Below, one piece after another: positions 20,220 through 23,886 of a stretch of 23,886 nt of DNA; positions within the stretch are counted from its first letter, which is position 1, and the number at the start of each line of letters is the position of its first letter. The translations under genes were made by a program, and so were the position numbers. The stretch spans positions 1-23,886 of the IMG/VR virus record IMGVR_UViG_3300037488_000572; one strand, written 5' to 3'. Under the pieces are notes generated by a model. That model had not been told where the DNA came from. It saw nothing but the letters and a program-made list of their open reading frames with translations, and ran no database searches. This DNA comes from a virus.

Positions 20220-20480
20220 ATGTCTACATTCATTACAAAGGTTATAAATAACCCTCGCAATTCAAGTACTGTCCTATTGATTCCAACAGACTCAGCTAAA
20301 GCAAAGTCCATTGTCCTTAATAAGACACGTGCCAAATCCCTTGGCCTATCTGTCAACAAGTGCTACTTGATTGACACATGGTCCAAGCCAATGGCAAACG
20401 GCAAACAAATGCACATAATAAAAGTGCATTCATGCCTTAGCACTGCGGCTACACCTAGTGCAAGGAAAAAGAAGTCTTAA
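20220..20480 (+). CDS. Small basic protein, first plus-strand gene
   Basis: An 86-aa protein: MSTFITKVINNPRNSSTVLL, then IPTDSAKAKSIVLNKTRAKS and LGLSVNKCYLIDTWSKPM, ending in a basic tail (ARKKKS). Composition is Ser/Lys/Asn-rich with short beta-like stretches; no known motif is seen. It uses many C-ending codons (GTC, GCC, TCC, TGC), unlike the minus-strand genes. It stands alone between its own CTAGCC element and its own terminator, whose stem includes the stop codon. Function is unknown. Confidence 0.8.
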   Translation: MSTFITKVINNPRNSSTVLLIPTDSAKAKSIVLNKTRAKSLGLSVNKCYLIDTWSKPMANGKQMHIIKVHSCLSTAATPSARKKKS

Positions 20481-20508
20481 CCCAAAAGGTTAAGGCTTTT
20501 TCTTTTTC
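20476..20508 (+). terminator. Terminator of the 86-aa gene
   Basis: CTTAACC and GGTTAAG pair over 7 bp around CAAAA, followed by GCTTTTTCTTTTT. The stop codon (20478-20480) lies in the left arm. Confidence 0.8.
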
Positions 20509-20510
20509 AT

Positions 20511-20560
20511 TCCTTCTCTTGCTAGCCTTTACTTGCAATAAATTAATTAATCTATTGCAA
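20511..20560 (+). promoter_or_regulatory. CTAGCC element, copy 2, with hairpin
   Basis: TCCTTCTCTTGCTAGCC and TTTACT (CTAGCC at 20522-20527), then a perfect 8-bp inverted repeat TTGCAATA/TATTGCAA (20533-20540 and 20553-20560, 12-nt loop). The repeat ends 2 nt before the ATG of the 47-aa gene at 20563. Confidence 0.65.
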
Positions 20561-21237: not shown

Positions 21238-21260
21238 GTGAACTTAATAAACATTGTGAG

Positions 21261-21289
21261 AACAAGAGAGAAATCTCTTGTTTTTTTTT
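21261..21289 (+). terminator. Terminator of the 139-aa gene
   Basis: AACAAGAGA (21261-21269) and TCTCTTGTT (21274-21282) form a perfect 9-bp stem with a GAAA tetraloop, followed by seven more T. It is the strongest of the plus-strand terminators. Confidence 0.9.
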
Positions 21290-21290
21290 A

Positions 21291-21349
21291 AATCCTTTTA
21301 TTGCTAGCCCGTCACTTAAAGTGCCGGTTACACTACACAGATGTAGTGT
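21291..21349 (+). promoter_or_regulatory. CTAGCC element, copy 4, upstream of noncoding region
   Basis: AATCCTTTTATTGCTAGCC (CTAGCC at 21304-21309) shares 15 or more positions with copies 2 and 3, then CGTCACT instead of TTTACT. It is followed by a small CACTT/AAGTG palindrome and an 8-bp hairpin ACACTACA-caga-TGTAGTGT (21330-21337 and 21342-21349). No start codon of a sizable frame follows. Confidence 0.6.
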
Positions 21350-22010
21350 GGATAATACATAATATGTTATGTTAATTAACACATAGAAGATATACTACTC
21401 GTATTAAGTATTAATCTGAATAGCATTGTGTATTATGTATAAAATATAACTACCTGATTATCAAGTAGTGAGTCTACTTGTTACACAGGGTGGAGACAAG
21501 TAATCGTACTAAGTATAACTTAATGTGTATTATGTAGGTATTATATCCTACTTTATTCATAGAAAGTATAGTAAGTATAATAAGAGTATTTAATAATCAC
21601 TACATGGTACAAGGTTATGGGAGTTAATACAGCTACTATACCTATGTCAGAGTGATTAAGATATTATATACTCTACTTATGCTGAGTTAGGAGCATTAAG
21701 ATTACATATAGTGTAGATTTACTTTAAGTAACCTTAGTTAACTAGTTTATACTCAACGCGTTAAGGTGTGAGAATGAGTGTAGGTGACAAACACTCAATC
21801 ATTCTATGGTAATACTCATTACTCATAATTTAGCCACATATTAAATACTATTAATATATATAGCTAAACAAGTATAATCACACACATCTCTTACCTTACA
21901 CATACATTACTTGTATATATCTTATACTTGTTCTTTATTACTTATTATTACTATTACCTGATATACAATAATAAACTCCGGAAATTTTAAAACAACTTAA
22001 ATATATAATT
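21304..22010 (+). ncRNA. Candidate structured noncoding RNA or leader, about 0.7 kb
   Basis: About 700 nt with no frame worth calling on either strand, dense in stop codons and inverted repeats. Perfect stems include ATACATAATA/TATTATGTAT (21355-21364, 21431-21440), CAAGTAG/CTACTTG (21462-21468, 21474-21480), TACTTGT/ACAAGTA (21475-21481, 21496-21502), TACTTT/AAAGTA (21549-21554, 21563-21568), TGAGTGT/ACACTCA (21775-21781, 21791-21797) and AACAAGTATAA/TTATACTTGTT (21867-21877, 21922-21932). The upstream CTAGCC element suggests plus-strand transcription. It could instead be a replication origin or a long 5' leader for the 67-aa gene. Confidence 0.45.
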
Positions 22011-22499: not shown

Positions 22500-22587
22500 A
22501 ATGAAATTAAAAGGCTACGTGTCAAGGTGGGAGGTCCGTGTGACTATACTTGAGATGGGACAACTCATTGGGCTTTTTAATTTCATT
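22500..22587 (+). ncRNA. Long-stem hairpin overlapping a small ORF start
   Basis: AATGAAATTAAAAGGC (22500-22515) pairs with GCTTTTTAATTTCATT (22572-22587) over 16 bp with one G-U, enclosing 56 nt that can form inner stems (TCAAG/CTTGA, TGAG/CTCA). T-rich sequence follows. This could be the core of a small RNA, or an mRNA fold that buries the ATG at 22501. Confidence 0.5.
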
Positions 22588-22644
22588 TTTACTCTCATCC
22601 AAGCAGGATATGGTCTAATCAACCAGAATATAAGCAACATGTGA
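22501..22644 (+). CDS. Possible 47-aa membrane peptide
   Basis: A frame of 47 codons: MKLKGYVSRWEVRVTILEMG, QLIGLFNFIFTLIQAGYGLI, NQNISNM. It has a basic start and a central hydrophobic stretch (LIGLFNFIFTLIQAGYGLI) that could span a membrane. The leader resembles those of the neighbouring tiny genes (AATTATTA before ATG). The same bases form the 16-bp stem described for 22500-22587, so either coding or RNA structure may be what is selected. Confidence 0.4.
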   Translation: MKLKGYVSRWEVRVTILEMGQLIGLFNFIFTLIQAGYGLINQNISNM

Positions 22645-22757
22645 ATGATTCGTTATAAGTGTGATAACTTATAAGCAGAAAAAAACTGACACTTATTACC
22701 AAGGGTTGCAACCTTGTGAGAGTACAATAATTATTAACCAACTAAACTAAACTAAAC
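22645..22757 (+). other. Hairpins with competing pairings before the 60-aa gene
   Basis: TTATAAGT (22653-22660) pairs perfectly with ACTTATAA (22667-22674). The overlapping ATAAGTGT (22655-22662) pairs equally with ACACTTAT (22689-22696), and GTTAT/ATAAC is a third option. A CAAGG/CCTTG hairpin follows near 22700-22716. The end is a short CTAAA repeat (ACTAAACTAAACTAAAC) right before the ATG at 22758. Confidence 0.45.
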
Positions 22758-22940
22758 ATGGTCTCAATTGAAAGAATTACTATTACAGAGGATTATGCTT
22801 TACAGCTTAATATCTCTATTGACTCTCTTATACAAGATAAAGAGAAAGAGGGTTTCCGGGAAGTTAATAGGTACACTCATCCTGCAGTAGGATTAGTAGT
22901 GGTTCTAACTAATGCACCTATGCCTGATTGTTGCAAATAA
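22758..22940 (+). CDS. 60-aa hypothetical protein
   Basis: MVSIERITITEDYALQLNIS, IDSLIQDKEKEGFREVNRYT, HPAVGLVVVLTNAPMPDCCK. Beta strand, charged helix, beta strand order is suggested; it ends with PDCCK, a vicinal Cys pair. It lies between two hairpin-dense noncoding stretches and is preceded by the CTAAA repeat. Coding is plausible from codon pattern and a clean start; function unknown. Confidence 0.6.
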   Translation: MVSIERITITEDYALQLNISIDSLIQDKEKEGFREVNRYTHPAVGLVVVLTNAPMPDCCK

Positions 22941-22944
22941 TTAT

Positions 22945-23681
22945 GCTTATACCTTGTTAACAAAGGTATAAGCCCTCAGATTTACCATCTGTTGATGAAG
23001 TCTGTTTGTTTGGTAAACAAGATAGTATATTATAAGACGTAATAACAATAAGCCCTTGTGGTGAACACTATAACAAGCAGTCTGAACAAAGTCTTGTAAT
23101 CCTAATAATATACTATTAGGTAGTAATGCACCACAACTCACGTGGATATAAAGACTTCTTAGCAATCATTTAACGCAATAAAAGCGTAGGTGTGTAAGGT
23201 CTCACTGAAATAATTTGAGACATCGTCTAATGACTAAGATGTGAAACCACAATGATTAAGCTACGTAACAACAGCAAGCATAGCTACTGAAAAGCGCAAG
23301 CATATTAATCATTCTCCCAAGGGTGAGCAGTTGTAATCACACAGAGCGTCTCCTCACTACCCATAGGTTATGGGTGCTGCATAAAAAGCAGGTAGTAAAG
23401 TGGGTAATGCCACAGGATGTCCTGATAGGTAAGATGTGATGAATATTGGTATTGAGTACAACCAATAACAACTGAGTGCAGAGGGGATTGCAGAACCTAC
23501 GGTGTTACTACCGTGGTTAAATGGAAGAAGTAACTGGGTGTATAGAGTATCCAAAAGAGAATGCATCTCAATCTTAGTAGAAAAATATTTCTAACCTATG
23601 ACTTATAGGGACAGCTTAAAAACAGTTTTAATAACTGTATTTGTTGAAATACAATCTATGCATTAAACTTAAAAACAATTT
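22945..23681 (+). ncRNA. Candidate large ornate structured RNA, about 0.74 kb
   Basis: About 740 nt without a believable gene but packed with stems: GCTTATACCTT/AAGGTATAAGC (22945-22955, 22963-22973); CAGAT/ATCTG (22977-22991); GAAGTCT/AGACTTC (22997-23003, 23152-23158) closing a domain that holds ATAGTAT/ATACTAT (23022-23028, 23110-23116) and ATTATAAGAC/GTCTTGTAAT (23029-23038, 23091-23100); GTCTCA/TGAGAC (23199-23221); AATGATTAA/TTAATCATT (23251-23259, 23305-23313); ACTAC/GTAGT (23356-23360, 23392-23396) around ACCCATA/TATGGGT and CTGC/GCAG; TATTGGT/ACCAATA (23444-23467); AACC-T-ACGGT/ACCGTGGTT (23494-23518); ACAGTT/AACTGT (23622-23638). Nested long-range helices and a three-way junction suggest a folded RNA like GOLLD or ROOL classes in kind. 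Confidence 0.55.
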
Positions 23682-23886
23682 ATGAAAACACTAATTATGA
23701 TTTTTACAATCTTAGGCTTAAAGTCAGAAGTATCTGACCCAAGTAAATTAACAAAAAATGAATTACGTTTTGTAAAAAATGTAATTAAAGTTCAAGGTAC
23801 ACCTGATGAAGTATACAAACTTCCTAATGGTAAAGTACAAGTAAATTATACAACACAACGCCTTACATTAGGACAAGATGGTTATA
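23682..23886 (+). CDS. Start of a gene truncated by the window edge
   Basis: ATG at 23682 opens a frame of 68 codons that runs off the window. It begins MKTLIMIFTILGLKSEVSDP, continues SKLTKNELRFVKNVIKVQGT and includes PDEVYKLPNGKVQVNYTTQR. The first 12 residues are hydrophobic but short for a signal peptide. The rest is soluble alpha/beta. The A-rich leader (TTAAAAACAATTT) is like that of other genes here. No family recognised. Confidence 0.65.
   Translation, partial: MKTLIMIFTILGLKSEVSDPSKLTKNELRFVKNVIKVQGTPDEVYKLPNGKVQVNYTTQRLTLGQDGY

Follow-up and report, generated by a model that had tools for sequence, protein, structure and literature searches.

A divergent, expanded twister-like ribozyme candidate in a modular noncoding RNA region of crAss-like phages

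RESULTS AND DISCUSSION

A conserved RNA at positions 23124-23485 of a crAss-like phage record, referred to here as element C, is probably a divergent, expanded, P5-bearing twister ribozyme, and from the analysis below it would cleave an early transcript at U23124/A23125. The window, by which we mean the whole stretch of DNA that was analyzed, is a 23,886-base virus record in which end repeats are absent.

Genomic context of the noncoding stretch

The window is from a crAss-like phage. The portal protein, the large terminase, and the major head protein are encoded on its minus strand, and the terminase is about 23 to 26% identical to its counterparts in Crassvirales and in phages of Flavobacterium and Cellulophaga. 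Closer terminases were found in at least 600 IMG/VR stretches, the best 80 of which showed 76 to 89% identity. The stretch of interest, 22945-23681, lies on the plus-strand side, past the divergent turn, between two ORFs.

22758-22940, plus strand: 60-aa ORF between elements A and C; no match in PHROG and Pfam searches
23682-23885, plus strand: ORF downstream of the RNA modules, from its start; extends beyond the window; no Pfam match

Protein searches with two neighboring ORFs gave no relatives; the TerL search did. In named phages, no DNA similar to the stretch was found, except for one 30-base match at chance level.

Additional features were observed upstream in the window. The 770-nt gap at 21238-22010 contains two further conserved noncoding stretches (21441-21502 and 21842-21877), the first of which is common to more than 15 other contigs. 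A GCTAGCC motif recurs between plus-strand ORFs near positions 20519, 20766, and 21301 (approximate), with TTTACT after it in two of the three places, and is possibly a phage promoter. The ORF at 20220-20480 is overlapped at its end by an intrinsic-terminator-like hairpin (20470-20508; AAGTCTTAACC ... GGTTAAGGCTTTTT), which gave a weak match to Thr_leader (E = 0.04).

The initial annotation had described 22945-23681 as one large, ornate noncoding RNA of the GOLLD/ROOL kind. The inverted repeats that it listed were present, and no ORF of 40 aa or more was found on the plus strand inside the stretch, in agreement with its noncoding assignment. The proposed excess of fold stability was also observed, with -186.8 kcal/mol for the plus strand compared with -161.2 ± 6.4 kcal/mol for 20 dinucleotide shuffles (z = -4.0); the minus strand was likewise over-stable relative to its shuffles (z = -3.4). 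A search of the stretch against Rfam 15 gave nothing at the gathering thresholds and chance-level matches only at relaxed thresholds. The expected covariation was strong among relatives of the stretch. The description as a structured noncoding phage RNA outside Rfam was thus upheld, but that as a single large GOLLD/ROOL-type RNA was not, and the annotated interval resolved into three modules, namely G (22943-23122), C (23124-23485), and H (23488-23678).

We consider it extremely improbable that the stretch is a large ornate RNA of the GOLLD/ROOL type that builds an RNA-only assembly. Its length, its AT-rich phage context, its many helices, and the z score of -4.0 fit such an RNA, but its modules exchange independently and its core matches twister. 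The Rfam models of GOLLD and ROOL had no match in the window at gathering or relaxed thresholds. GOLLD and ROOL are often located near tRNA islands (PMC12286853); no tRNA was found in the window or in 14 stretches of relatives, and some other relatives carry one or two. The stretch resembles GOLLD, ROOL, and OLE in being large and highly structured, and GOLLD and ROOL are phage RNAs too. Unlike these three RNAs, it is modular and exchangeable, has a twister-like core, and lacks both a tRNA island and a sequence or model match to them.

Relatives and distribution of element C

Relatives were obtained by searching the whole records of the terminase relatives with the region, and short strong matches were found in three. 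The three matched places carried recurring motifs, designated A (ACTCTCATCCAAGCAGG ... CAAGGGTTGCAACCTTGTGAGAGT), B (ACCACAAGGTTTCAGGCATAACC ...), and C (TAATGCACC, a hairpin, and CAGTTGT ... ACAACTGAGTGCAGAGGGG). Pattern scans of viral contigs showed that the C family is present in well over 100 environmental contigs. A crAss-like terminase was encoded in 26 of 27 long contigs bearing C or A, and C occurred once or twice each in records of 88 to 129 kb (22 of the 27 searched). In the records in which both positions were compared, C was on the strand opposite the terminase and roughly 10 to 31 kb away from it. C and the next ORF had the same orientation in 150 of 165 cases, with a median distance of 130 nt to the ORF, and the adjacent ORFs belonged to many unrelated families. 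Because the IMG/VR contigs are partial and related, these counts do not represent independent events, and relatedness among the sequences inflates some pair counts.

The model of element C (model R1) had no match in FPSV-S29, cr1_1, or Dulem virus 42, and its match in cr130_1 was marginal (19.6 bits). A host-encoded origin of C was rejected, as the 29 pattern matches in 84,980 bacterial and archaeal genomes were no commoner than chance. The only bacterial-genome contig with strong matches to the C model was L436, an 8-kb MAG contig labeled Neisseriaceae, which probably comes from a phage and was binned with the MAG. An enriched word, ATGTCCCAAGCACAA, was discarded after it proved to be coding. 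The open-access literature yielded no report of these RNAs.

Conserved core of element C

A core was common to at least 91 distinct short-form copies and at least 60 long-form copies, and model R1 matched the window at 23290-23491 (32.6 bits, E = 9.9e-6). Comparison of the copies shows a C fold made up of P1 (at the level of the family), an L1 containing UAA and GAGGG, P2, P4, T1, a long P5 arm, and an inserted domain; a putative T2 (CC/GG) is consistent with the copies. The core features of the window copy, with invariance referring to an alignment of 38 C copies (A1), are as follows.

23124-23485, plus strand: element C, long form, twister-like ribozyme candidate (UAA ... GAGGG), from the shared core and covariation
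23124-23126, plus strand: L1 5' side, UAA, invariant in A1; putative cleavage at U23124/A23125
23127-23130, plus strand: P2 5' strand, UGCA, pairing with 23477-23480
23131-23132, plus strand: 5' half of the putative T2 pseudoknot, CC, complementary to GG 23321-23322
23137-23141, plus strand: P4 5' strand, CUCAC, pairing with GUGAG 23323-23327
23315-23322, plus strand: L4, UCCCAAGG, in which CCC 23316-23318 forms T1 with GGG 23483-23485
23328-23474, plus strand: P5, CAGUUGU 23328-23334 with ACAACUG 23468-23474, and a 133-nt variable arm that includes the three-way junction of the initial annotation
23477-23485, plus strand: P2 3' strand, UGCA, and L1 3' side, GAGGG; G23481 aligned to the candidate catalytic guanine of twister

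In A1, 94.5% of the cells in the structure were paired compared with 86.9% after shuffling, and double-change cells numbered 98 compared with 31.8; slid registers were at most 46.4% paired. In addition, the individual helices and contacts were examined. P1 directly flanks UAA and GAGGG in the C family in a single sharp register (z = 6.3), and two-sided changes were observed at all four of its pairs in A1, yet only 69.7% of the P1 cells were paired. A perfect 6-bp P1 is present in L417 and L110, and P1 of the window copy (AGGUAG with GAUUGC) is unpaired in the family register. For this reason, the case for the family is stronger than the case for cleavage by the window copy. Among 91 copies, P2 was UGCA/UGCA in 82, UGUA/UACA, a compensatory change, in 5, and UGUA/UGCA in 3. 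T2 was CC/GG in 90 of the 91 copies and UC/GG in the remaining one; its halves are complementary and nearly invariant, so T2 shows no covariation of its own. P4 had changes on both sides at all five pairs in the short form and was 94 to 100% paired with two-sided changes in the long form, and the hairpin loop that it closes in the short form is UUCCCAAGG.

The L4 loop was CCCAAG or CACAAG in nearly all copies. GAG-G was invariant in A1, and GAGUG occurred solely alongside the matching change in T1, which turned from CCC/GGG to CAC/GUG in four copies as a compensatory change. P5 was 96.8% paired in A1, its arm ranged from roughly 30 to 185 nt across the short-form copies, and the two nucleotides AG separate it from the P2 3' strand. 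Within the P5 arm of the window copy, 23356-23396 (ACTACCC...GGGT GCTGC...GCAGGTAGT) is able to form the three-way junction that had been annotated there. The candidate catalytic guanine was placed at the first G of GAGGG by our own alignment, with the roles taken from PMC5408937. An energy-based fold of the C region alone gave a z score of -3.2, and the pseudoknotted core was not recovered by energy alone.

Comparison with twister and hatchet ribozymes

Twister cleaves a U-A step beside P1, within L1 (PMC5408937). The twister model contains T1 between L4 and L1, T2 between L4 and L2, and a 4-bp P2, with P3 and P5 being optional (PMC5408937, PMC6154101). Canonical T2 involves a conserved GC in L2 (PMC5408937), and P5 is found in approximately 1% of annotated twisters (PMC6154101). 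The Rfam twister consensus runs UAA, P2, GCC, P3, P4 with UCCCAAG, UAAA, P2, and GAGGG. Element C shares with twister type P1 (RF03160) the P1 helix, UAA, P2, the P4 loop UCCCAAG, T1, a putative T2, GAGGG, and the strand order, and its UAA, CCAAG, and GAGGG correspond to the twister-conserved positions in L1 and L4. In contrast to RF03160, C has a long P5 arm without P3, AG instead of UAAA on the 3' side of L2, CC/GG instead of GC in T2, and either one extra U (short form) or a whole domain (long form) in L4. The Rfam twister models matched no C copy in either cmscan or the family search, and C is therefore not filed as an Rfam twister. We regard C as a divergent twister-like ribozyme candidate.

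Known ribozymes were found near C in related phages. In L313, a C copy is preceded by a genuine twister-P1 (48.5 bits, E = 4.8e-9) at a distance of about 110 nt, and model R1 cross-matched this twister in the exact register with 17.8 bits. In four contigs, a canonical twister or above-threshold hatchets were located within about 0.1 to 1.4 kb of C, and the hatchets were about 0.7 to 1.4 kb upstream of C in three contigs. Hatchets over the Rfam threshold were present in 5 of 40 related contigs compared with 0 of 14 controls. The hatchet (RF02678) thus occurs at the same locus in related phages, but its fold differs from that of C. The window had no RF02678 match at gathering or relaxed thresholds, and neither C nor A matches hatchet. 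Pistol, hatchet, and twister-sister came to light through association with ribozyme-linked genes and with ribozymes (PMC10085705), and elements A, B, and C were likewise noticed partly from their position beside known self-cleaving ribozymes of phages; unlike the ribozyme-associated RNAs of that study, the three elements had no match to any Rfam 15 family searched.

It is also conceivable, although rather unlikely in our estimation, that the twister fold persists as a stable, pseudoknotted leader at the 5' end, for mRNA protection or translation insulation, and that some or all copies no longer cleave. The unpaired P1 of the window, the failure of P1 in approximately 30% of cells, and an L2 without the twister UAAA are in line with such a relic or adaptor, as is the strong conservation of the fold just upstream of ORFs. 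However, the active-site side (UAA, CCAAG, and GAGG) is retained even where P1 varies, and P1 covaries in the family, which a pure roadblock would not need.

Domain inserted in L4 of the long form

In the long form, which includes the window copy, the catalytic loop is expanded. The alignment of the copies shows that the insertion is a conserved three-way-junction domain placed after the P4 5' strand and ahead of the UCCCAAG loop, and all conserved parts except a paired P1 are present in the window.

23142-23314, plus strand: L4-inserted domain with S1, an internal loop, S2, S3, and two variable arms
23142-23145/23247-23250, plus strand: S1, GUGG/CCAC, covarying stem
23146-23157/23239-23246, plus strand: internal loop, AUAUAAAGACUU/AUGUGAAA, nearly invariant over 60 copies
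23158-23162/23234-23238, plus strand: S2, CUUAG/CUAAG, covarying and carrying an arm
23251-23259/23305-23313, plus strand: S3, AAUGAUUAA/UUAAUCAUU, covarying and carrying the second arm

Among 31 deduplicated long-form copies, 97.7% of pairing was observed compared with 88.7% after shuffling, and double-change cells numbered 37 compared with 9.7. Across at least 60 long-form copies, the internal loop of the family was AUAURAAGACUU/AUGURAAA and S3 was formed around CUGAUUAA/UUAAUCAG. Chance or coding matches aside, the pattern of the inserted domain was found only inside C, and it was absent from the short forms. As a separate observation, the S3 arm of a long-form C in L169 (near 9654, minus strand) holds a canonical-twister-like fragment (TAATGCAGCC ... 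GCCAAAATGCAG).

GAAGTCT and AGACTTC, which the initial annotation had taken to close a domain, are present at 22997-23003 and 23152-23158, but the closing stem is not conserved and was rejected: the upstream GAAGTCT partner was found in 1 of 48 long forms, namely the window, and in all 60 relatives of the long form AGACTTC belongs to the internal loop, which hardly varies. The complementarity annotated as a 17-bp bulged helix (23022-23038 with 23091-23116) also exists in the DNA; a rival hairpin (23101-23107/23114-23120) competes with it, and compensatory changes in relatives back the hairpin. Both annotated helices are probably not native structure.

The long-form domain might sense a small molecule or a protein and thereby switch cleavage as a natural allosteric twister, a reading that we hold to be improbable. 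Such control would suit the internal loop, which is near-invariant over 60 copies while the surrounding helices covary, which lies beside the catalytic loop, and whose domain the short forms lack. However, the downstream genes of many unrelated families do not suggest one ligand, and docking of an arm could by itself explain a conserved internal loop.

Exchange of modules and the neighboring elements A and B

Modules G and H flank element C in the window, and a second covarying RNA, element A, lies upstream of the 60-aa ORF.

22943-23122, plus strand: module G, conserved RNA module immediately preceding C; 76 to 81% identical in L151, L170, and L137
23488-23678, plus strand: module H, 3' module reaching the next ORF; 98% identical in L155 and L216
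22590-22725, plus strand: element A, second covarying RNA, with P1 (UACUCUCA/UGAGAGUA), upstream of the 60-aa ORF

In other phages, the modules are found apart from one another or combined differently. L214 and L205 carry part of module G, whose hairpin at 23101-23107/23114-23120 has three two-sided pairs. In L155 and L216, module H follows a different C copy, and 23465-23678 is shared at 98%. The P5 arm of the window (23313-23486) is 97 to 99% identical in L119 and L127, which have no other DNA detectably in common with the window over the 5.7 to 7.7 kb compared. In L302, 22394-22610 of the window is found at 91% identity. The boundaries of exchange lie near the conserved motifs of the core. 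A long-range stem, AAATTAAAAGGCTA / GGGCTTTTTAATTT, was also seen at 22501-22590, around the module common to L302.

A pattern scan for element A gave at least 119 stretches. In 26 copies, 99.4% of cells were paired, and two-sided changes were observed at 8 pairs compared with 1.4 after shuffling. In the mini-hairpin CC[AAGCA]GG (22599-22607), GCA kisses UGC in the loop of the hairpin at 22700-22716, and the kissing pair changed from C-G to U-A in 3 copies. To our knowledge, from comparison by eye, motif A has no match among known small ribozymes. From its company, it is plausible that element A is a ribozyme.

RAGATH-18, a ribozyme-associated RNA motif, proved to be a guide RNA with TnpB (PMC11061315), and this history is a warning for reading element A as a ribozyme. 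As an alternative, the RNA of the noncoding stretch could be a partner of a phage protein (Y-RNA-like, Ro60/TROVE) or a guide RNA of a TnpB-like nuclease, which appears highly improbable. The early genes of crAss001 include a TROVE protein (PMC10136315), and in L089 a DUF2828/DUF7788 ORF (L089:5681-7144) directly follows C. However, DUF2828 was found in 1 of 29 genomes and TROVE in none of the 29, and a TROVE/Ro60 partner was rejected as a general rule. The TnpB guide RNA was likewise rejected, given that the TnpB-like zinc domain PF07282 was found in 0 of 27 genomes and in 6 of 14 controls.

Two further observations concern this region. A third conserved hairpin RNA, element B (ACCACAAGGTTTCAGGCATAACC ... 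GACTTGTGGT), is present just upstream of A in about ten relatives, including L088, L089, L128, L146, L205, and L244, and is missing from the window. Inside the 60-aa ORF, TAATGCACCTATGCCTGATTG (window 22910-22930) resembles a decayed 5' half of short-form C.

Proposed function of element C

Crassvirales transcribe their gene modules early, middle, and late (PMC10136315). If element C is a twister, its RNA would fold co-transcriptionally and self-cleave between U23124 and A23125, and the active site would hold G23481 and A23125 by analogy with twister. Cutting the early transcript would leave each downstream mRNA with a compact, pseudoknotted leader bearing a 5'-hydroxyl. Early-transcript cutting is proposed because C copies sit in the leaders of many unrelated small early genes. 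Element A, together with hatchet, twister, and element B in related phages, may serve as alternatives or additions within the same processing locus, and arms may be swapped between phages through recombination at the conserved core.

A broader reading, which we offer tentatively and think doubtful, is that of a dedicated, mosaic ribozyme locus in crAss-like phages. C would then be a new L4-expanded twister class, possibly controlled by a ligand or protein, and A, with its kissing hairpins closed by P1, a second new self-cleaving class; with interchangeable hatchets and twisters they would jointly process early transcripts and exchange arms between phages through recombination at their cores.

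At this locus, ribozymes of several classes and ribozyme-like RNAs are found at a single conserved position in crAss-like phages, in the leaders of small genes on the plus-strand side of the divergent turn, on the strand opposite the terminase. Ribozyme cores here mark the borders of exchanged RNA arms. If C is a twister, as we think probable, the tolerated anatomy of this ribozyme would be widened to include a long P5 and a domain in the catalytic loop. Twister and hatchet ribozymes of bacteria and phages have as yet no settled natural role; the cutting of early transcripts would be a concrete and directly testable one.
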